64,000 nt of DNA, from the NCBI GenBank assembly GCA_009667805.1, contig CM019064.1, positions 272,285,662 to 272,349,661 on the forward strand, written 5' to 3'. A program made the position numbers and the translations under genes. The DNA comes from Leptobrachium leishanense. Lineage: Eukaryota > Chordata > Amphibia > Anura > Megophryidae. Shown here in pieces: positions 16,736-42,017 of the stretch. The notes beneath the pieces are model-generated. The model had not been told where the DNA came from, searched no databases, and worked only from the letters and a program-made list of their open reading frames with translations. How positions within the stretch are numbered: the first letter of the stretch is position 1; each line of letters begins with the position of its first letter.

Positions 16736-24361
<7,626 letters not shown>

Positions 24362-26637: not shown

Positions 26638-27402
26638 TTACACCCCACTGATATTATTATTGAGTTCCTCGTACTTTGGGGGGCCTATTTTTGTCAGGAA
26701 CATGTCTTGTGGGATAATCAGTGGTCTCTTTTGTGTCTGTGTAGGTGTCAGTGCTCTCTTGCATAGTGGCCATAGACATAGCCCTATGCGGTACAGTAGT
26801 GTCCCTACGATCAAGATCACCACCAACATCAGAATCATGGATCCAATCTGTGAAATAAATCTCAGAATGGATCCGAACCAATCTCCGATTGCTCCGAACC
26901 CACAGAGTGGATTCCAGCCTTCAGCAGAAATCCGCCTTGCTGTGTTCTGCAACTGTGCTACTTTCTCCTGGTGATCTTGGATTACTTGGTAGTAGTCAGG
27001 GACATCGTGTGTGGTGTTCTTGATGAAGGTGCAACATTCATAATGCATTGTCATTTCACACAGTCCCTTCAGAGCTGCACTGATCTGTTCCAGTGTCAAA
27101 TCATGTATCATTTGTACCTTTTTTCGTATCTCTCGTACTTCCAGATTCAGCAACTGAATATCCATACTAGTCTTGTTCAAAATCTCATCCATCAGACTGG
27201 CATAACTGTACATTCTTGCCATTAACTCTCTTCCCCATCCAGTCCATGCCGGAAACCATGCCCATATTCGATCCGCTTTCCTAAACAACTCCCTCTTATG
27301 TCTCTCAAACACCAGTGGGTACCTAGGGTGGAGTGCTGTGTCTGTATCTGTGTCATCTCCCCTTACTCTCTGAATTGGAATCATTTTTGCCAGATAACAC
27401 AT
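26638..27402 (-). pseudogene. env: ERV env, 3' part: cleavage site and transmembrane subunit
   Basis: This part continues in the same frame as the surface part but follows a TGA (27433-27435). It carries a furin-like RHKR, an amphipathic helical stretch, a disulfide motif C-x7-CC (CEMTMHYECC), NxT sites, a hydrophobic anchor (SMILMLVVILIVGTLLYRIG) and a tail with PPKYEEL. The C-x7-CC spacing differs from the usual C-x6-CC of gammaretroviruses. There is no strongly hydrophobic fusion peptide just after the RHKR site, which is odd. The stop codon overlaps the 3' LTR. Confidence 0.85.
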
Positions 27403-27432
27403 TCCCGTTATTGTTGGTAGTACCCATGTGTA

Positions 27433-28257
27433 TCACATCCTTTCACAACACACCTGGTACCCCCCTTTCAATATGAATGGTGATAAATGTAGTGTTCCCT
27501 TTGATATTTCAATCATCAGTTGTCTCAGTCGTCTCATCATATCCAACGCACTCTGCCTTCCATTGGTCACATTCGCAATCACCATCTCTTGGTCTCTAGT
27601 GAGTTTTCTACATCGTATGTATAGAAAATTTGCCTTCTCTCTTGTGTTGAATGTGTAAATGTATGCTGTCCAGTTGAACTTACTTGAATTACACAATTCA
27701 CCCTCGTTATTTGTTTCTCTATCTGGTCCTAGTTGAAAACACCATTCTGGTGGGTACACTGGTCCTGTTATGGGATACCCGGGACTGAATGCTTCTGGGT
27801 TTTCTCGTGGTGCATCGAAAGCATGTATTGTGACATTTCCTAATGCAAACATACTTAAATTCATTGGAACAGAGGCAAATGGTATATGAATTGTCTCTGG
27901 GTGCAGTCTACTACACACCCAGCATGCGGTTTGCCCAGACTTTTTAGCATAGTCATATTTAAATTGCACAAGTAAATGTCCTCTTGGCATAATCTCGGAT
28001 ATCGCCTCTCGCTTTTGTCTCCACATGGTACGGTTCTCCATCACCGGGTGCGTACCATTCCAGATGTGGGAGATATCCACTTTCTTGGTGGTGCTTGGGC
28101 ACCTGGGGCATGCTCCATGTGATAGTCCATAAATCAGATTCGCAAGGTACAAAATCAGTACCACAAATGCCCCAAATGTCAAAATCCCTTGGGCAACTCT
28201 TTTCACAGTCACATAAACCCAATCCCTCCCCACCGGAATTTCAAAAACAAAAGACAT
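27433..28257 (-). pseudogene. env: ERV env, 5' part: signal anchor and surface subunit
   Basis: Starts MSFVFEIPVGRDW, followed by a long hydrophobic segment (about residues 24-46) acting as signal sequence. It then has a Cys pair, several N-glycosylation sites (NGT, NRT, NLS, NVT, NWT) and CWVC at about residue 112, which matches the CxxC isomerase motif of gamma-type SU. The frame ends at one TGA (27433-27435). With that single exception the env frame is open end to end, so the break is probably a point mutation. Confidence 0.85.
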
Positions 28258-28416: not shown

Positions 28417-28782
28417 TCAGGTGCTCACATCTGTGGTCTTTGTCAGCTTTAGCCTCAAAGGATTGGTCTCGTTGGTGACGACCTTCCATTTTGGTTCAGG
28501 ATTGGCTGCAGCTACCTTCAGTCTGGAGTGATGTATCCACGGGACCACCTCGGCAACCTTCACTGCTGTAGGGGTTGATAACAGGACAAGGTAAGGACCT
28601 CTCCATTTTGGGCCTAGTGGATCATTTTTCCACTCCTTCACCCATACTGAGTCACCTGGACAATACTTATGCAGTGGGGGATATAAAAAAGTGAGGTATA
28701 TTATCTCCCACCCAAGTATTCAATTTCTGCGTTGATTTACCTAACAGTACAACCTGATCATTTAGTTTAGTTTCCCCCAATG
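28417..28782 (-). pseudogene. pol: ERV pol, integrase C-terminal part
   Basis: After the 1.1 kb insertion the pol frame resumes. It includes SVWVKEW-type text and the GPY/F module KWRGPYLVLLSTPTAVKVAE, followed by VVPWIHHSRLKVA, characteristic of gammaretroviral and chromovirus-like integrases that bind chromatin. It ends near 28417 with TTDVST. Continuity with the N-terminal portion is shown by the 16-bp target copy on both sides of the insertion. Confidence 0.82.
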
Positions 28783-29870
28783 TAATAGATAGGCTTGAAT
28801 GGAAAACTTCAATAGTATTCTTGATCATAATGACAAATGTAGAGCCAAATAAGGCTCAGATAATATCGCCTCTTGACCACTCTGGGGGTCACACCCCTTG
28901 TATGGGATTCTTCACACTTTAAACCAGTCGTAAGGTCATCCGTTGGTGGATTCTTTAACTCTTTAGAAACAAAGGAACACTTCCATTGCGCAAATTCAGT
29001 AACTTTATATGAGCAAATAAGAGAATGGGTACTCACAATCTCTTGAGCCTCTTATGAAAGTGGCTCAGTATAAAGGCTTATCACGGATCTTGTAGCCAAT
29101 GGGTTAGTTTTCCGGTGAGAAATGGTGGACCAAAAAATAAATGAATGTGCACTATAATAGTATTAATGCAACATTTAATAAAATAAATATGAATAAAAGA
29201 GACACGTTTCATCCAACCACACTGTGGGCTTCCTCAGTCTTGTCCATAAGTCTTAGCCATAAGACTGAGGAAGCCCACAGTGTGGTTGGGTGAAACGCGT
29301 CTCTTTTATTCATATTTAATTTATTTTATTAAATGTTGCATTAATACTATTATAGTGCACATTCATTTATTTTTTGGTCCACCATTTCTCACCGGAAAAC
29401 TAACCCATTGGCTACAAGATCCGTGATAAGCCTTTATACTGAGCCACTTTCATAAGAGGCTCAAGAGATTGTGAGTACCCATTCTCTTATTTGCTCATAT
29501 AAAGTTACTGATATTTGCGCAATGGAAGTGTTCCTTTGTTTCTAAAGAGTTAAAGAATGCACCAACGGATGACCTTACGACTGGTTTAAAGTGTGAAGAA
29601 TCCCATACAAGGGGTGTGACCCCCCAGAGTGGTCAAGAGGTGATATTATCTGAGCCTTATTTGGCTCTACATTTGTCATTATGATCAAGAATACTATTGA
29701 AGTTTTCCATTCAAGCCTATCTATTACAGTTAAGTGCGCTCACACTGGGGCTTACGCCCATCTTTTCTAATTGATTTATTGTATAGGGTGTACATAGGTG
29801 TTTATTTGAGCAGCCATTTTACTACACATTATTTAATATCTAGCGCCAAGTGTTCTCTCTGCTTTTTTCT
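28783..29870. mobile_element. 1.1 kb fold-back insertion inside the ERV integrase
   Basis: Two long arms (about 28783-29230 and about 29245-29728) are near-perfect reverse complements around a spacer near 29235. About 140 bp of extra sequence follows on the right, with a poly-T run at the end (ctctgctttttt). The 16-bp target text ttagtttcccccaatg occurs on both sides (28767-28782 and 29870-29885). The duplication plus poly-T (poly-A on the other strand) resembles retroposition with internal inversion, but a fold-back DNA transposon is possible. Confidence 0.8.
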
Positions 29871-30744
29871 TAGTTTCCCCCAATGCCCGAAGGTCCCCCC
29901 TTAGTCCACTAATCAGAGGGGTAGGCCGTCCGAACATAAGCTCGTACAGACTTAGCTTCAATTGGGGGGTTGGCCTGCACCTAATGTGCAATAGGACTAT
30001 CGGCAGCACATCCAACCAGCCTAGTGACGTCTCTTGGCACAGTTTGGCCATCAAAGTCTTTAGGGTGCGGTTCATTCTTTCGACTTTTCCCTAGCTTTGG
30101 GGCCTGTAAGCAGTATGTAGCTTCCAGGTGATGCCCAACAGACGGGCAAGCTGTTGTAAACAGTTCTGTATGAATGCGGGGCCATTTTCCGACCCTATTT
30201 CGAGAGGAAGTCCATAGCGTGGTATTATTTCTTTCATTAGACTCTTCACCACTTCCGCTGTCTTCTCTGTCCTTGTTGGGAAAGCTTCTACCCATCCTGT
30301 CAGGGTGCACACCATTACCAGTAGATATTTATATCCTTTGCAGGGTGGCAGCACTGTGAAATCTATCTGTAATGATGCCATTGGGGACAGCGCGATTGGC
30401 TGTTTCCCTGGAGGTTGAGACGGGCCTGTTCTTGGATTATGTTTGGCACATGTCACGCACTGCTGGGCTATTGCTTTGCAGACTACTGACAGTCCTGGTA
30501 CGTAGAAATGTGGCTCCAACTGTTGTTCCATCATTTCTCTTCCTCCATGAGTACTTGCGTGAAGCGTTCTCACGATCTCAGGTGCCAATGTTGCTGGTAG
30601 GACTATTTGTCCATTCTTTAACTGGGACCATCCGTCTTCTCCATATCCGCCTTGTTCTTCTGATAGCCATTTCTTCTCTTTCTCTGAATACACAGGTGTC
30701 CATTCACTCAGTGGCGCCGGTAGGAGTGCAGCCACCACCGGTGT
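29871..30744 (-). pseudogene. pol: ERV pol, integrase zinc-binding and catalytic core
   Basis: Zinc domain HASTH (about 30561) and CVTC (about 30455). First catalytic Asp is in LQIDFT (30361-30363). The second position reads GSENGPAF (30187-30189), Glu where Asp is invariant. TAG (30091-30093) interrupts the frame just before GKVERMN, which supplies the third catalytic Glu. The frame then runs to the 1.1 kb insertion. Both a stop and an active-site change make the enzyme inactive. Confidence 0.88.
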
Positions 30745-31374
30745 TGCCTTGTATCGTGCCAATTCTCCCTGGTTTCCCCAGACAAATTCTTCTTTTGGGA
30801 AATAGTATCGCCAGGCGAAGAACAGCAGATCTTGTTTCTCTTGCGTATCTCTTACTGCTGGTACAAAAAAGTTCATCACACTTTTCTTCATTCTTGGCAG
30901 TTTATTTTTGATAAGGGTCTCTTTGAGAAAGAACCTCACCAACGGGGCTTGGTATTCTTCTGCTCCCAACTCTCCCAAACTTAGCAGTATTCATGTGATC
31001 CTCAAGTTATTATGAGGGTTGGCTGTTAGGTTGTCAAAACGTGAGGCAAAATTTTCTGCCCGTTCAACTTCAGTTACTTCTGTATCTTCTCCATACTCCC
31101 CCATTAATTTTACGCCGAAGAATTTCAGCATCATTTTGTATGCTCTGCGGAGTCTTTGCTGAACTTCTGAGGTGTTAATCATGAGACGTGTTTCTTGGGG
31201 GGTCAGAGGGGTGGAGTAGAAATTTCGGCCTTGGGACCGTGTTGGAAACAGCCACTGGATATAATCATGGTTGGCCTCCAATAGTTCATAATCGTTGTGC
31301 CATTTGTGCAAAATAATTTCAATAATTTCGCCTTTTGGTTCAAATTTTCTCCAATTCATGTAGAATTCGTAATT
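30745..31374 (-). pseudogene. OGFr-like domain inserted in ERV pol between RNase H and integrase
   Basis: About 210 codons matching the conserved domain of opioid growth factor receptor. Blocks in order: NYEFY and HKWHNDYELLEANHDYIQWL (about 31300), FPTRSQGRNFYSTPLT, RRAYKMMLKFFGVKL, AENFASRFDNLTANPHNNLR (about 31000), ELGAEEYQAPLVRFFLKETL, FFAWRYYFPKEEFVW (about 30790). OGFr is a vertebrate nuclear-envelope-associated receptor for Met-enkephalin that restrains cell growth. Here the block has no introns and is in frame with integrase downstream. It carries one TGA (30991-30993) at a position consistent with CGA decay. The role in a virus is unknown; it could be a host-derived regulator released by protease or a spacer. 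Family match is from memory. Confidence 0.86.
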
Positions 31375-32549
31375 TGGCATGGGAGGTTGAGCTTCCTGCT
31401 TGCAGAGCAGGACCTTGGCTTGATCAGTTGTTAGCAATGGTTTTGCAGCCGCTTTTGCAGCCTGGTCAGTGCGCCTGTTGCCTTTCGGGATTTCACATGA
31501 CCTTTCTGGTGGCCACGACAGTGCATAATACTGACAGCACTTGGTTTCCATACAGCTTCTAGGAGGGCTGCGATTTCAGCTGCATACTTGATTTGTTGTC
31601 CTGAGGAAGTAAGCATGCCTCTTTCTTTGTAGAGTGCACCATGTGCATGGACAGTCATAAAGGCATATTTGGAGTCAGTATAGATATTTACTCTTTTGCC
31701 TTCGGAGATTTCCAGAGTCTTGGTTAGGGCTGTTATTTCAGCCAACTGTGCTGACATATGGCCTGGTAGAGAATTTGCTTCAATAATTTCTTCTGCTGAG
31801 ACAACTGCATAGCCGGAGACTTTCTTCCCATCATCCATGTAGCTGCTACCATCAGTAAATAACTGTAGATCGTATTTGTCTAGGGGTACGTCTTTCAAAT
31901 CTGGTCTGCTACTGAACACTTCTTCCATGACTTGGAGGCATTCGTGATCTGGATCATCTTCACAGTCAGGCAGTAAAGTAGCAGGGTTCAAGGTAGAGAT
32001 GAGGTCCAAATGAACCCATGGATTCTCACACATCATAGCTTGGTACTTCGTCATCCGGCTATTGCTGAACCAGTAGCTTCCTTTTACATCAAGCAGGGCT
32101 TTGACAGCATGTGGTACCTTGACATGAAGAACTTGTCCAAGGGTCAGCTTGTCTGCTTCTGCTATCAGCATTGCGGTGGCTGCCACAGCTTTCAGGCATG
32201 GGGGTAAGCCGCAGGCCACTGGGTCAAGTTGCTTAGATAGGTAGGCCACAGGCCTTGGCCATGAGCCAAAGTTCTGAATCAGCACTCCTGTAGCTGTTTG
32301 ATTGTGTTCATGCACGTACAGCTGGAAGGGCTTGCTGTGATCTGGCAGTCCCAGTGCTGGAGCTTCCATTAGTAGAGTCTTTAATTTCAGGAAAGCTGCT
32401 GTTTGCTCTTCTTCCCAGAGGAAGGGGTCATGCTCTCCCCCCTTGGTGGCTTGATGAAGGGGCTTAGCAATATCTGCGAAGTTGGGGATCCACAGGCGGC
32501 AGAAGCCTGCAGCTCCTAGGAATTCACGGACTTGTCTCCTTGTCTTTCG
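31375..32549 (-). pseudogene. pol: ERV pol, RT connection and RNase H
   Basis: After the TAA at 32550-32552 the frame stays open to about 31480, where it shifts into the frame used by OGFr-like and integrase parts. RNase H motifs are complete: LFTDGSS (about 31851), the AQLAEITAL Glu, NIYTDSKYAF, and HCRGHQKGH near the end. In the other frame GNRRTDQAAKAAAK closes RNase H. The connection domain has the KPFQLYVHEHNQTATGVLIQ text of gamma-like pol. Confidence 0.88.
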
Positions 32550-33430
32550 TTAGGGTATTTGGCATACTGCTTCTTTTCTCTCTGCCCCCAGTGCACGCTT
32601 GGTACCTGTTAATTGGAAACCTAGGTATTTTACACTTTGTTTGCATATTTGTGCTTTCTTTTTGGACACTCTGTAACCTGCTTGGCTTAGCAGATGCAGC
32701 AGGGCTTTTGTGGCGGAAAGACAGTCTTTTTCTGTGGGAGAAGCCAGTAATAAATCATCTACATACTGTAGTAAAACGACTTTGTCTGGCTGAGCATTGA
32801 AGGACAGGAGGTCCTGGCTGAGCGCGCATCCGAAAATCGTGGGCGAGTTTTTGAAACTTGAGGGAGGCGTGTCCAGGTCATCTGATGGCGCGCTCCCGTG
32901 GTGGATTCCTCCCACTGAAATGCAAAAAGGGGCTGGCTTGCTGGAGCCAGATGGATGCAAAATAAAGCGTCTTTTAAATCAAGCACCATGTAATATTTTG
33001 TATTGCCGGGAATTAATGCCAATAAATTGTATGGGTTGGGAACCACAGGGTGTAGAGTTACTGTGGCTTCATTGACGGCCTGTAAATCATGGACTGGGCG
33101 GTACTCTCGTGTTCCCTCTTTCTGTACTGGCAACAGTGGTGTGTTCCACGGTGACATGCAGAATTTCAGAATGCCGTGGTCTTTAAGTCTTTGCAAATGT
33201 GTCTGAATATTCTGCTTGGCTTTTTGTGGGATATGGTATTGTCTTAGAGCCACAGGCGTTGCACCAGGCTTTAAATCCACATACACTGGAGGAATATTTA
33301 CAGCTAGTCCGGGCGGGTTTTCCTCCACCCAGACTCCAGGAATTTCAAGGAGTAGTGTGTACGGGTCTGGGGCGGCCGGCAGGGTTGGTGCCGTGCGCCA
33401 TTCTTCTTCTCTTGGCATAATTACTGCAAT
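32550..33430 (-). pseudogene. pol: ERV pol, reverse transcriptase
   Basis: Motifs: SPWNTPLLPVQK, YRPVHDLQAVNEATVTLHPV, catalytic VLDLKDALF, and YVDDLLLAS (32754-32765) in the neighbouring frame. The frame change lies at about 32857, where one G is missing in the LPQG(F) motif. A TAA (32550-32552) follows. All three catalytic Asp are still readable. Confidence 0.9.
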
Positions 33431-33838
33431 TTTTACAGGTTGAGTATGCTGGCTGGCTGGGCTGTACTGCCGTGTAGAGCTGCCACTCTCAGGCAGGTCT
33501 AATCTAGCGTGACCCCTGGGAAGAAATGTAATTTGGGCTTGCAATTTGCAAAGGATATCCCGCCCCAGGAGTTGGATGGGACATTCGGGCATATACAAAA
33601 ATTCATGTTCTACATTATGCCCACCCACACTACATTTTCGTGAAGCAAGAAAGGGGTACTTAGCAGACACCCCCATTGCTCCCATAATATCAACCTCATT
33701 TCCCATTGGGGGTGCAATTTGCTGTGTTACAACAGAATATTCGGCACCGGTATCAACCATAAAAATTTCATCTTTATTTCCCACCCTCATAGTGACCGTG
33801 GGCTCGTGATTACCGAGCGGGATGGGCCCAGGTCCGTG
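33431..33838 (-). pseudogene. pol: ERV pol, protease
   Basis: Begins directly after the gag UGA. Active site is MVDTGAEYSVVTQQ, with the ILGRD-like flap/end motif IQLLGRDILCKLQ. Gamma-type, expressed as a gag-pol read-through product. This segment has no visible break. Confidence 0.88.
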
Positions 33839-33841
33839 TCA
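33839..33841 (-). promoter_or_regulatory. Gag terminator in frame with pol (UGA read-through site)
   Basis: The gag frame ends ...GQGTY-TGA and continues open in the same frame as HGPGPIPLGNHEP into protease. The stop context is TGA-C, the leakiest type. Gammaretroviruses use UAG at the same place, with a downstream pseudoknot. Confidence 0.8.
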
Positions 33842-34384
33842 ATATGTACCTTGCCCTTCAAATGACGTTCCCGCCAAACCAACAAACCCTGCACCGGCAC
33901 CATAATTTCTCTCATATCTGCCGTTTGTTACCTGACCATTGGAGACCTGGCCTTCCGCTTCCCCAGCCTCCCCCTGCACCCCAAATTTAGCCAAAAATGC
34001 AGGACAATCATTTTTCCAGTGACCTTTCTCCCCGGCACCATGAGCACTGATTGGGCCCCAGGGGTTCCCTAGGGGCTCCCCTACCTCTGCCTCCGTGACC
34101 CCTTGCTCTCCCTCTTTCCGGGGCATCCCTTCCCCTCCGTTACCCATGTAACCGATCACCCCGGTGTGTCCTCTTTGCTTCCTCATCTCCTCCCGCTTTT
34201 CTTCTAGATCCCGATTATGAAACACTTTATTAGCAATTTCTACCAATTCGCTAATACCTTTCCCTAGATACCGATCTATCCTCTGTATTTTGTTCCGTAT
34301 GTCTCTTTGTGACTGTCCCACAAAAGAAGAATTAATTAACCTCTGATTCTCCACCGCTTCAGGGTCAATACATCCGATATGCAT
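33839..34384 (-). pseudogene. gag: ERV gag, nucleocapsid region
   Basis: Contains a basic/acidic helical stretch (RDLEEKREEMRKQRG) and the second half of a CCHC zinc knuckle (GEKGHWKNDC, about 34010-34040). The first two Cys positions read Ala in this frame, while TGC-x-x-TGC is present one base out of phase just before (about 34045). A one-base indel inside the knuckle is therefore indicated. A further shift at about 34375 separates this part from capsid. Confidence 0.85.
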
Positions 34385-35020
34385 CTAGTAACCTTTCTAG
34401 AAATGCACTTGGGGTTTCTTTAGAATCTTGCACAATATCCGCTATTTTCCCCATGTTTGTGGGTTTCTTCCCTCCCGCTTTAACACCCATTATTACCGCT
34501 GTACAGTACGTCTGTAGGTGAGCAATGCCTTCAGCAGTATTGTATGGCCATTTGGGATCTGTTTTGGGGTAGTGTTCGTCTGCCCACGCTTCTGGTAGGG
34601 GCTTGGCATCTTCTACGGCTTGGGCAAGTAGAATTTTCCGCGAGCTACTATTTATTCGGGCTCTTTCCTCAGTTGTGAACATTGTCAGCATTAGTTGCTG
34701 ACAATCTGCCCATGTGGGTTTATGTGTAAGCATAACTGACTTTATCATACTGGCCACCGCTGCGGGATTAGTGGAGTACAGTGGTGTGTGTGTTTTCCAG
34801 TTAAATAAATCTGTTGTTGTGAATGGGACATATGTGTATTGTACTGGCCCAGGTGCTCCATTTTCCAGTAAGGGACCTGGCACCTCCCGTAGGGGCAGTT
34901 GCATTTTACTTTTGCCGGGGTTGTGCTGATATGGTTCTCGGGGTTTATATATATTGTTCGCTGCGCTAGTGGTGGCCCATGGATTTACATCTTTACTCTC
35001 ATCATCACTGTCCCCTGGGT
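34365..35020 (-). pseudogene. gag: ERV gag, capsid
   Basis: Capsid start is of the gamma type (QYTYVPFTTTDLFNWKTHTP), followed by the major homology-like and C-terminal segment ETPSAFLERLLDAYRMY. The frame begins before 34904: an acidic stretch (DSDDES) upstream belongs to it. It is separated from matrix by a shift at about 35020. Confidence 0.87.
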
Positions 35021-35656
35021 TACTAGTTTATATACGCTCCCATCGGGCATTTCAATCCTCCCTGGTGGGACCTCTCTGTCTCTTCCACCCGCAGCCCCCT
35101 CCTCTTCTTCCGCACTGCCAGGAGCTGGGGCGGAGGGAGCCGGCGGGGAAATAGCAGCTGCCTGCTCCCCCCTCCCCGCTCGCGCAACTGCGGCACTCAA
35201 AGCTTCTCTGGCTGCTCCATAACATGATGGATAGGGCGGGGGCAGGGAATCAATCTCCTCCAGTTGTTCTACCAACACCAGTTTCCATTTTTCATCATTA
35301 TCTTCTTTATTTGGGGGTACCTGCTTCTTGTTTTGTCCCGCCATCATTATAAAATGACTTTTATCTTTTACACAATACCTCCATATATCTATATACGGGT
35401 ACTGTTCAGGATGCCCGCATTTCCCAGTGACTTGGGAGTGCACTCTCTGTATTAACTCCGGGTCCATAGACCCCTGTTCTGGCCAATCTGGAACTAACTG
35501 TGGCCACACCATTGTACACAATAATTTTAACTTTTCTTTACTCAATTCCATTCCATAATCATGTGTTGCATACAACACTTCAAAATTCCGCACCATGTAC
35601 CCCAAGGGCGTCTCACCCTTCTTAACCTTCTTGGGTTTGGACGACCCATTACCCAT
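34985..35656 (-). pseudogene. gag: ERV gag, matrix and proline-rich region
   Basis: Starts MGNGSSKPKKVKKGETPLGY: Gly-2 for myristoylation and a basic patch for membrane binding. A Pro/Ala-rich region follows with PPPYP, a PPxY late-budding motif. The frame is open 23 codons further upstream to a Met, but the MGNGSS start is favoured by the myristoylation signal. It runs out of frame at about 35020 and stops at 34985. Confidence 0.87.
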
Positions 35657-36727
35657 TGTTACTCTCCCGGGCAGTAACTTTTTCACAATGCAGATATTAC
35701 TTTCAGCAAAAACACTTGAAATCAACGGTCTGGTACTTCAGTCAACAATTCATATATATCGTATTCGCTTCCTCCGTCAGTAGCCGATTGCAGTCGCCTG
35801 AACCGGAAACGTACTTTAGGAGTCCACTCTCAAGTTTGCTTTCTCGCAAGGCGAGTAGGCGCTCAATCACTCACAGCACTCTCAGCACCATTCACAGCAC
35901 ATACTTGTAGCAGATACATTCGGCACAAAACAATTCATAAACAATTCTACTCTCTCTACTAGCCGAGGGCACGCCGTCCCTCCTCTTGGCTCCTTATACC
36001 CAATTGATTGATCTCAACTCTTGTCTGCTTGTGACTATTTGCACCCCGTTCTATAACAACACTCCCGTCTGCAATTCCAATTTGCCTATGGGTAATCTTC
36101 CCACCCAGCACCACTACCACTGCAGCTACCGCTGGCCCCAATTGGCCCTCCTCACTACACGACGTACACACTAGCACTGACTTAGGGCTCTCAGCCCAGT
36201 CACAGAAATCCCTACTCCTTTCCTTGTCCACGTGCAGAAGCTCTATTTACAAACACTGACTATAACAATGCAACTCCACGTGGCTACCCTCTCCCTCACA
36301 TACAGAACTACCCTTTGGTTAACATCCGATCCCCCGGGTTCAGACACGCGCTAGCCACTCTGGCTCCTTTGCTTGTCCGTGCTGTCGGCGTCGGGTCTGG
36401 TATGTCAACGAAACCGTGGCCGCAGGTTTCCTTATCCAACTATGGTCGGACGTTCCCCTTATACCGGTATCTCTAATACACATACAAACATAGAAAACAC
36501 TTTACCTATCGCCGCGCTGCTCGCTGTTTCCTCAGACTCGGGGTGTCCCAGCTTCCCGGGCCGGGGGTCCGTTTGGGACGAGACAAGGTCCACTGAACAG
36601 GAAATCCTGCTTGGCGCCTGCAGATGTCAGCTCACCTTCAACGGACGCCCAACCAGCGGGATCACTCGCACCTGCAGTCAACCGCTACAGTGTCCAGCAG
36701 TCGTTGCCATGCCGGCAAGGGCCCGAT
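35657..36727 (-). other. ERV 5' leader (about 1.07 kb)
   Basis: Long leader between primer site and gag start, expected to hold the packaging signal and splice donor. A 90-codon minus-strand frame (35959-36231, MDKERSRDFCDWAESP...) is open within it. I recognise no product; it may be chance or an accessory gene. Confidence 0.6.
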
Positions 36728-37500: not shown

Positions 37501-37505
37501 ACTTA

Positions 37506-37766
37506 GGCTAGGGTCAGACTAACGCATTTTTCGCGTCGTCCGTGAAAAAGTGCGTTTGAACGAATGGACGTATTTTTTCATGGAATACGCGATAGCGGTC
37601 ATACCATGCGCATTTTTGTCCATGATTTTGTACGGATCATCAATAAAACACTTTCGTGCGGCCGTACTTCGTATATTGCCCGTCATTGGCCGTCATTTGC
37701 TGCTACTACGGCTGTGATAAAGCGCGGCTGCACGCGCGTTCGCACTGCGTTCATCTGACCCTAGCC
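37506..37766. mobile_element. MITE with GGCTAGGGTCAGACTAACGCA ends
   Basis: 261 bp, starting ggctagggtcagactaacgc and ending tctgaccctagcc. Flanks are TTA and TAA. It is an internally shorter version of 58710-59137. Confidence 0.82.
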
Positions 37767-38251
37767 TAAATCCTTACCAGCTAATCCCCCGTACCAACTG
37801 CCCCTGCAGTGGAATATAGTATGAGCCACAGTGCGCTGCAGGAAAATAAATTGACCTAAGGATTTAGTCATCTCTAGATAGAGCCTGTAGACCAGGATCG
37901 AGAAGTCTGTGGACTCTTGTTTAATACAGGACTAACAAATGCAAGTTTGTGCATATTGTTATTCTTCCAGCTCTTACCAGTAAAATCAACTATTGTAGAC
38001 TTGTGAATGAATTACACGTTTCAGTTATATAATTTTTCCAGGTTCAGTGTTCTTTTTGCTGTTATTTTGACCTAATATTTATAAACTTCCACCAATCCAC
38101 TGCTTAGCAAATAATACCTACAATAGTTTGATTTTAGTGAAGAGCATGTTTTTGTATTACCCACTTTAATGAATATGTGTTTATTTACCTTAAAAACCAA
38201 TTGAATTTGCAGTTTTATTACACTAGTAACACAACTGGTATTGCTGGATTA

Positions 38252-39841: not shown

Positions 39842-40462
39842 GTCTAGAGTAAGCAGTGGATTGTGATGTCCTTTGCACCATGGGACCAGAGATGAGGAAA
39901 TATTTTTTTGAACTTTGTATTTTTCGTGTCAAGTGTATATGCAAATGCAAAGTCACTTAACACCAGAGGGATTATTCAGAAAGCACCCAACGATGAATTT
40001 CACCGTATGGTGCAATTTTGTGGCCGTTCATCTATTCACTAAGTTGCAAATTTGCCAAATACTGGCAAATTGACAGTGAAATACTGTGCAGATCAGTGAT
40101 CTTCAGCTTCAGTGATAGTGTCCCATAAAGAAGTAATGGTTAATCGATTCAGAGAACGCTGAACTGCACCGTTGTGTCAGGGAAATGCCCTGATTTTCAG
40201 TGATTCAGTTCGACAGGTTTAATAGGCGAATCCCATAGGATTCAATGTAAAAAAAAATATTGTTTTTATTTTTTTATTAAAACGTTTATTCTTTTCCTTT
40301 TCAGCAAATCTTTTATTTAATTTTTTGAAAACCTTTTCTATTTTTTAGACAAAATTTTTGATTCCCAATTTTTTTAACCCTTTTAGCTGCTGCGGGCGAG
40401 CCAGGGGCGGATCCAGAGACTAGTCTCGGGAGGGGCACTAACAGAAAATAAGGTGTTTTAGC

Positions 40463-41097
40463 AGAGAGCCCGACTCACGAGAATTTACAGAGGGCCCGGC
40501 TCACAGGAGCTTACAATCTAGAGGAGCAGAGGGCCCGGCTCATAGGAGCTTACAATCTAGAGGAGCAGAGGGTCCGGCTCACAGGAGCTTACAATCTAGA
40601 GGAGCAGAGGGTACGGCTCACAGGAGTTTACAATCTAGAGGAGCAGAGGGCCCGGCTCACAGGAGTTTACAATCTAGAGGAGCAGAGGGTCCGGCTCACA
40701 GGAGCTTACAATCCAGAGGAGCAGAGGGCCCGGCTCACAGGAGTTTACAATCTAGAAGAGCAGAGGGCCCTGCTCACAGGAGCTTACAATCTAGAGGAGC
40801 AGAGGGTCCGGCTCACAGGAGCTTACAATCTAGAGGAGCAGAGGGTCCGGCTCACAGGAGCTTACAATCTAGAGGAGCAGAGGGCCCGGCTCACAAGAGT
40901 TTACAATCTAGAGGAGCAGAGGGCCCGGCTCACAGGAGCTTACAATCTAGAAAAGCAGAGGGCACCCAGGAGCATACAATCTAGAGGAGCAGAGGGCACC
41001 CAGGAGTTTACAATCTAGAGGAGCAGAGGGCACCCAGGAGCTTACAATCTAGAGGAGCAGAGGGCACCCCGGATTTTACAATCTAGAGGAGCAGAGA
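40463..41097. repeat. Minisatellite, 39-bp then 34-bp units
   Basis: About 16 units of the type gaggagcagagggcccggct plus cacaggagcttacaatcta. From about 40950 the unit loses five bases (gagggcacccaggag). Units are highly uniform, suggesting recent expansion. Confidence 0.95.
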
Positions 41098-41103
41098 GCC
41101 CCC

Positions 41104-41936
41104 AGCTCACACATGGATTTGCCCCCAGCTCATGGATTTGCCCCAGCTCATGGATTTGCCCCAGCTCACACATGGATTTGCCCCAGCTCACACATGGATT
41201 TGCCCCAGCTCATGGATTTGCCCCAGCTCACACATGGATTTGCCCCCAGCTCACACATGGATTTGCCCAGCTCATGGATTTGCCCCCAGCTCATGGATTT
41301 GCCCCAGCTCATGGATTTGCCCAGCTCATGGATTTGCCCCCAGGTCATGGATTTGCCCCAGCTCATGGATTTGCCCAGCTCATGGATTTGCCCCCAGCTC
41401 ATGGATTTGCCCAGCTCATGGATTTGCCCCCAGGTCATGGATTTGCCCCCAGCTCATGGATTTGCCCCCAGCTCATGGATTTGCCCCCAGGTCATGGATT
41501 TGCCCAGCTCATGGATTTTCCCCCAGGTCATGGATTTGCCCCCAGCTCATGGATTTGCCCCCAGGTCATGGATTTGCCCCCAGGTCATGGATTTGCCCCC
41601 TGCTCATGGATTTGCCCCCAGCTCATGGATTTGCCCAGGTCATGGATTTGCCCCCAGGTCATGGATTTGCCCCCTGCTCATGGATTTGCCCCAGCTCATG
41701 GATGCCCCCAGCTCATGGATTTGCCCCCAGGTCATGGATTTGCCCCCAGGTCATGGATTTGCCCCCTGCTCATGGATTTGCCCCAGCTCATGGATTTGCC
41801 CCCAGGTCATGGATTTGCCCCCAGCTCATGGATTTGCCCCCAGCTCATGGATGCCCCCAGCTCATGGATTTGCCCCCAGCTCATGGATTTGCCCCCAGCT
41901 CATGGATTTGCCCCCAGGTCATGGATTTGCCCCCAG
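41104..41936. repeat. Minisatellite, about 19-bp unit
   Basis: About 40 units of ccccagctcatggatttgc and variants (caggtcatgg, ctgctcatgg; 16-20 bp long). No stop occurs in any of the three plus-strand frames, so three long false proteins (MDLPPAHGFAPSSW-type) appear. It is not coding. Confidence 0.95.
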
Positions 41937-42017
41937 TGAGTTTACACATGGATTTGCCCAGCTCTCACCTGGATATTGCTCCAGGCCTCCAGCTCCGGTG
42001 TTCAGGGGTTGAGGGGA

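Follow-up and report, generated by a model that had tools for sequence, protein, structure and literature searches.

The 64-kb stretch of the Leptobrachium leishanense genome analyzed here (64,000 nucleotides of contig CM019064.1, assembly GCA_009667805.1, positions 272,285,662 to 272,349,661; referred to below as the window) carries a decayed provirus on its minus strand. The provirus comprises gag, protease, reverse transcriptase (RT), RNase H, a block encoding an OGFr_N domain, integrase, and two open reading frames (ORFs) at the place of env (Table 1). The Gag_MA and Gag_p30 matches, together with nearest integrase relatives of gamma type, assign it to the gammaretrovirus-like (class I) endogenous retroviruses (ERVs). 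OGFR is a host protein that controls growth, and OGFr_N is its folded domain. We have virtually no doubt that the OGFr block is a fixed pol module of a large retrovirus family and that it was captured from the host.

A preliminary description of this DNA had placed OGFr signatures between RNase H and integrase, and the minus-strand translation of 31374-30745 indeed holds the motifs that it quoted. The profile check that it proposed is equally clear: against a curated cutoff of 22 bits, OGFr_N (PF04664) scores 143 bits (1.2e-41) on 31374-30994 and 85.9 bits (3.5e-24) on 30990-30745, the two pieces lying on either side of a TGA codon. The dUTPase family is absent from the Pfam scan of the block, which found OGFr_N instead. 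The same description had the block sharing the frame and the light decay of the rest of pol. It does share frame -1 with integrase, but its decay includes the in-frame TGA, and the bulk of RNase H is in a frame different from that of its own last residues, the OGFr block, and integrase (the matched RNase H part lies in frame -2 in a comparison with pieces of P0014, an L. leishanense protein from UniProt). The OGFr domain of a sibling copy (L023) has its fold predicted at a pLDDT (predicted local distance difference test score) of 90.7, and in 32 viral rows the 70 host-conserved columns are kept at 85.5% on average, versus 27.8% at 69 host-variable columns. Two features of a full-length OGFR gene are missing from the viral form: it is intronless, as described, without the four introns of the host domain, and no host C-terminal tail was seen after the domain. 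The domain has multiplied in hosts too, with two or three OGFr domains in tandem in proteins of fishes and poison frogs (P0001-P0006, P0008, and P0010).

A first-look OGFr_N search of the 3.54-Gb genome yielded 5871 candidates. The 150 that were scored had E values of 7e-69 or better throughout, and some lay within open frames of more than 1000 residues. From these 150 we took 68 copies, 8 returned by the search and 60 chosen for spread rather than at random. RNase H lies upstream of OGFr in 63 of the 68 and integrase downstream in 67, with both present in 62. An OGFr frame is shared by the first integrase piece in 60 of 67 copies and by the last RNase H piece in 51 of 63. Because sibling copies carry the block, a late host insertion into a single provirus is ruled out. 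This set had been picked by OGFr, and for that reason we also sampled copies by integrase. Among 30900 first-look candidates, the 150 best matches to the window integrase were kept, and 20 were fetched by taking every third from place 2 to place 59. OGFr precedes integrase in all 20, with 196 to 210 of its 210 residues covered.

A protein search with the integrase part of P0014 found 207 proteins, the best 120 of which were listed. OGFr_N occurs in four of these 120, all from L. leishanense, and is not among the domains of the other 116, which include proteins of lizards, bats, Pelobates, and a caecilian; the sequence of P0130, another L. leishanense protein in that listing, starts inside integrase. 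With OGFr as the query, at least 14 of the best 120 of 741 proteins combine OGFr_N with domains of RNase H or integrase, again all from L. leishanense. A search with the OGFr-integrase junction returned five proteins, likewise all from this frog, and its reach must be short because host OGFRs did not appear in it. RNase H and integrase are separated by 11, 12, 13, 15, 17, and 22 residues in six relatives that lack OGFr, compared with 241 in P0014; P0145 and P0156 were set aside from this comparison, having matched the later integrase part only and given negative values. The nearest integrase relatives of this element, which itself has Gag_MA and Gag_p30, are gammaretrovirus-like ERVs from reptiles, bats, and amphibians other than this frog (P0121, P0122, P0125, P0145, and others); they differ from it in the absence of OGFr_N from their listed domains and in the shortness of the six linkers measured. 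The insert sits in this linker, in agreement with the capture at the RNase H-integrase junction that had been proposed. Distances from RNase H to OGFr fall into two groups, 18-46 and 84-227 residues, in the 54 copies measured.

The preliminary description had also suggested comparing dN/dS (omega) across copies. Codon models were fitted to separately aligned blocks, and the window's own pieces could enter the RNase H and integrase sets. Omega of OGFr is 0.191 in 13 copies in which all three blocks are open and 0.249 in 54 stop-free copies; fixing it at 1, with kappa at its estimate, is worse by 163 and 421 log-likelihood units, respectively. RNase H gives 0.070 (13 rows) and 0.119 (36 rows), and integrase gives 0.117 (13 rows) and 0.125 (28 rows). 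Among the integrase-picked copies, omega of OGFr is 0.215 (8 copies without stops in 80% or more of the domain) and 0.295 (16 copies with stops masked), an omega of 1 being worse by 54 and 55 units; the integrase value of 0.065 in this set (19 copies) is lowered by its own picking. In pairwise comparisons of OGFr, the ratio of nonsynonymous to synonymous differences (pN/pS) is 0.98 at pS below 0.02 (5 pairs) and then 0.49, 0.27, 0.23, 0.19, and 0.20 up to pS 0.5; it is 0.37 beyond pS 0.5, where pS nears saturation. RNase H behaves likewise (1.09 down to 0.09), and integrase had too few close pairs for a trend. As far as the sequences tell, this pattern is that of a domain constrained during replication and drifting after insertion, and OGFr is almost certainly under purifying selection in the viral family.

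In a tree built from 45 OGFr domains, those of the virus, 15 in number, form one clade (100/100), the sister of which is P0022 and P0027, the host OGFR of L. leishanense (99/93); many host branches of this tree are poorly supported. A tree that holds the OGFRs of Leptobrachium, Pelobates, and Spea together without the virus is 15.1 units worse (P = 0.019 in the approximately unbiased test). The host OGFR locus (L070-L072) lies at about 9.48-9.51 Mb of contig C12 and consists of two tandem copies. P0022 maps to eight exons, with GT/AG at the joins as far as read, and OGFr_N spans exons 4-8; exons 7 and 8 of one tandem copy are identical to P0022, which seems to mix exons of both copies. Exon 3 is rich in hydrophobic residues and was found in one tandem copy only. 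Four introns split the host domain, and viral copies cross the corresponding joins without insertion or deletion in 52, 54, 54, and 54 of 54. Because these introns are absent from the virus and the viral domain is sister to the OGFR of the same frog, host mRNA is its likely source. Capture by an mRNA route, which the preliminary description had already supposed, is on these sequences highly probable.

Traces of the captured transcript appear to extend beyond the domain. Host exons 1-2 are matched upstream of it in 5 of the 68 OGFr-picked copies (L005, L006, L010, L014, and L047) at E <0.001, the best value in a control with 20 shuffled queries being 0.008, and exon 3 is matched in none of the 68 at E <0.01. 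In L005 the exon 1-2 match lies more than 1 kb before the OGFr domain. Only L047 and L010 of these five copies are in the trees; L047 is the first viral branch in both, and L010 is next in a 67-row tree and in an open fork in the 45-row tree. In Pelobates, the isoform P0029 is without the stretch corresponding to exon 3, and P0030 has it. What the virus took up was probably a spliced mRNA that lacked exon 3, from close to the start codon as far as the domain's end; this mRNA would have been either a skipped form or the transcript of an exon-3-less copy. To judge from the exon joins, host exons 1, 2, and 4-8 (to the end of the domain) would have entered as RNA, and the N-terminal part of the captured segment would later have shrunk to a short linker. 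The viral form shares its domain with vertebrate OGFR, above all with P0022 and P0027, but most of the copies examined lack the host N terminus, and the viral form has neither introns nor a visible tail.

Table 1. Parts of the provirus in the window, by window position
Feature	Positions	Strand	Evidence
gag, matrix part (Gag_MA)	34985..35725	-	Pfam Gag_MA 6.8e-11
gag, capsid (Gag_p30) and following part, two overlapping ORFs	33839..34904	-	Pfam Gag_p30 2.2e-42 on 34368-34904; 3.2e-05 (under cutoff) on 33842-34384
pol, protease and RT, in pieces	32550..33790	-	Pfam RVP 5.2e-12; RVT_1 5.5e-06 and 1.3e-14
pol, RT connection and RNase H	31434..32369	-	Pfam RNase_H (PF00075) 5.2e-21; P0014 RNase H match at 31886-31497, frame -2
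End of RNase H (GNRRTDQ...) and RNase H-OGFr linker, motif KVLLC at 31402-31416	31375..31482	-	Predicted protease site; motif recurs in sibling copies
Captured OGFr_N domain, one in-frame TGA at 30991-30993	30748..31374	-	Pfam OGFr_N on both pieces; 86% to P0014; frame -1
OGFr-integrase linker (PVVAALLPAPL)	30709..30741	-	Predicted protease site; conserved in sibling copies; similar in P0121 (relative without OGFr)
pol, integrase, zinc-binding and core domains	30073..30720	-	Pfam Integrase_H2C2 5e-10, rve 5.2e-16; 92.6% to P0014; frame -1
pol, further integrase ORF (C-terminal side)	29833..30075	-	By-eye resemblance to continuing integrase of P0014; alone without Pfam match
Two ORFs at place of env	26638..28257	-	Position only

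The two ORFs at the place of env have no Pfam match over the cutoff, including none to an envelope family, despite the gamma-type gag and pol. A pair of long terminal repeats (LTRs) was searched for in the window and none was found. Two related repeats at 23547-23975 and 37505-37767, far outside the provirus on both flanks and about 79% alike over 188 bases, carry matching inverted ends and resemble another mobile element more than LTRs. A foldback element lies within the provirus at 28781-29728, between integrase and the env-like ORFs, with inverted arms of 74 to 193 bases that are 91-100% complementary. Tandem repeat arrays with units of 39 bases and about 19 bases occupy window positions 40371-41955.

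The linkers on both sides of OGFr bear on how the domain might be used. A hydrophobic motif that ends in L-x-C (KVLLC, KMLPC, ETLLC, and the like) is often retained in the RNase H-OGFr linker, and the OGFr-integrase linker keeps some form of PLLP-P-L--WTP, resembling the linker of P0121, which is without OGFr. Broken copies deviate from both motifs. By analogy with lentiviral dUTPase, which is a proteolytic product of Gag-Pol according to an excerpt of PMC4531489, we read these conserved hydrophobic linkers as predicted protease sites. The viral protease would cut out OGFr, the amount of which would follow that of Gag-Pol; OGFr would then be packaged and enter with the core. We predict such release of OGFr as a separate product with moderate confidence. 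Because the fold and the host-conserved residues are kept, viral OGFr should still meet the partners of OGFR, and because the host C-terminal tail is missing, a decoy would be its likeliest use. It would bind these partners without passing on the growth-inhibiting or interferon-linked effect, an action that would favor early steps of infection. Host OGFR holds cells before S phase, as stated in a section of PMC8363427, and trout ogfr is listed among interferon-stimulated genes in a part of PMC6009034. That virions deliver the domain to act as a decoy of host OGFR is a prediction that we make tentatively. The combined account, in which OGFR was captured as a spliced mRNA and its domain is released by the protease and acts as a virion-delivered decoy, seems to us reasonably probable. 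We hold with more reserve its strongest form, that a retrovirus lineage may have turned the OGFR of its own host into a protease-released virion protein, at the place of lentiviral dUTPase, that disarms OGFR in newly infected cells.

Several observations weigh against this account or parts of it. Constraint on OGFr is weaker than on RNase H and integrase, and a stop or frame break interrupts OGFr in 13 of the 20 integrase-picked copies, though such damage is expected from decay after insertion. The approximately unbiased test supports the placement of the virus only at the P value given above, for a grouping that was chosen after the first tree (67 rows). The absence of exon 3 may be due not to exon skipping but to the second tandem host copy, where that exon was not found, and the genome search covered one genome only.

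Instead of being released, OGFr could stay joined to RT or integrase and work inside the replication complex, with nuclear entry and integration-site choice as examples of its role, rather than act on a host pathway. It is in frame with integrase in most copies, its cleavage is a prediction only, and a structure comparison of its fold lists helical-repeat binding proteins, though at middling Z scores (6.9 and less). However, the short hydrophobic motifs conserved on both sides look like cut sites, and the lentiviral dUTPase at the same place is released, so we regard lasting attachment as rather unlikely. Once released, OGFr might also be a mimic that adds to the action of host OGFR and slows the cell. 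Its preserved fold and host-conserved residues would suit such a role, as would the reported hold before S phase. On the other hand, gammaretroviruses benefit from dividing cells, and what the virus has kept is the domain alone, with no host tail seen; a mimic is therefore less likely still. A functionless passenger, tolerated in a flexible linker, would explain why the linker upstream ranges in length between 18 and 227 residues in the 54 copies measured and why OGFr is under weaker constraint than the enzymes. It is nevertheless very improbable, since omega is 0.19-0.30 with 1 rejected, also in the integrase-picked copies, and since OGFr is kept in every one of the 20 copies picked by integrase.

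Retroviral uptake of host genes is known mainly from defective transducing viruses. Here, the host-derived domain has become a permanent component of pol, the same genome holds a close relative of the donor gene, and captured mRNA exons are still readable in some copies. Searches of a library of open-licence papers found no account of an OGFR domain in a retrovirus. A virus that keeps OGFr under selection offers a direct handle on OGFR function and on any part that OGFR plays in infection. If viral OGFr does disarm its host counterpart, OGFR would count among the host factors that act against retroviruses, and the OGFr domain would be a new class of retroviral accessory protein.

Known viral systems resemble this one in different respects. 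An OGFr domain is present in a protein of Marseillevirus LCMAC202 (A0A481YX38 in BFVD; Foldseek E 6.1e-06, template modeling scores 0.66 and 0.73), which bears the name opioid growth factor receptor and has the same predicted fold, but this is a giant DNA virus, and identity over the match is 21%. The retroviral cyclin (orf a) of walleye dermal sarcoma virus, as presented in a portion of PMC3185748, likewise belongs to a replicating retrovirus, in which it is an accessory protein folded like a host cell-cycle regulator; it differs in having its own spliced transcript, in lying outside pol, and in being less than 20% identical to host cyclins. The nearest precedent is the dUTPase of nonprimate lentiviruses, an extra pol domain that the excerpt of PMC4531489 places between RNase H and integrase, the position of OGFr in the 62 copies with both flanking domains. 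It belongs to another protein family, the virus here is of gamma type, and release of OGFr is a prediction. If our account is correct, the L. leishanense family would be the second case in which the RNase H-integrase junction accommodates an additional protein.
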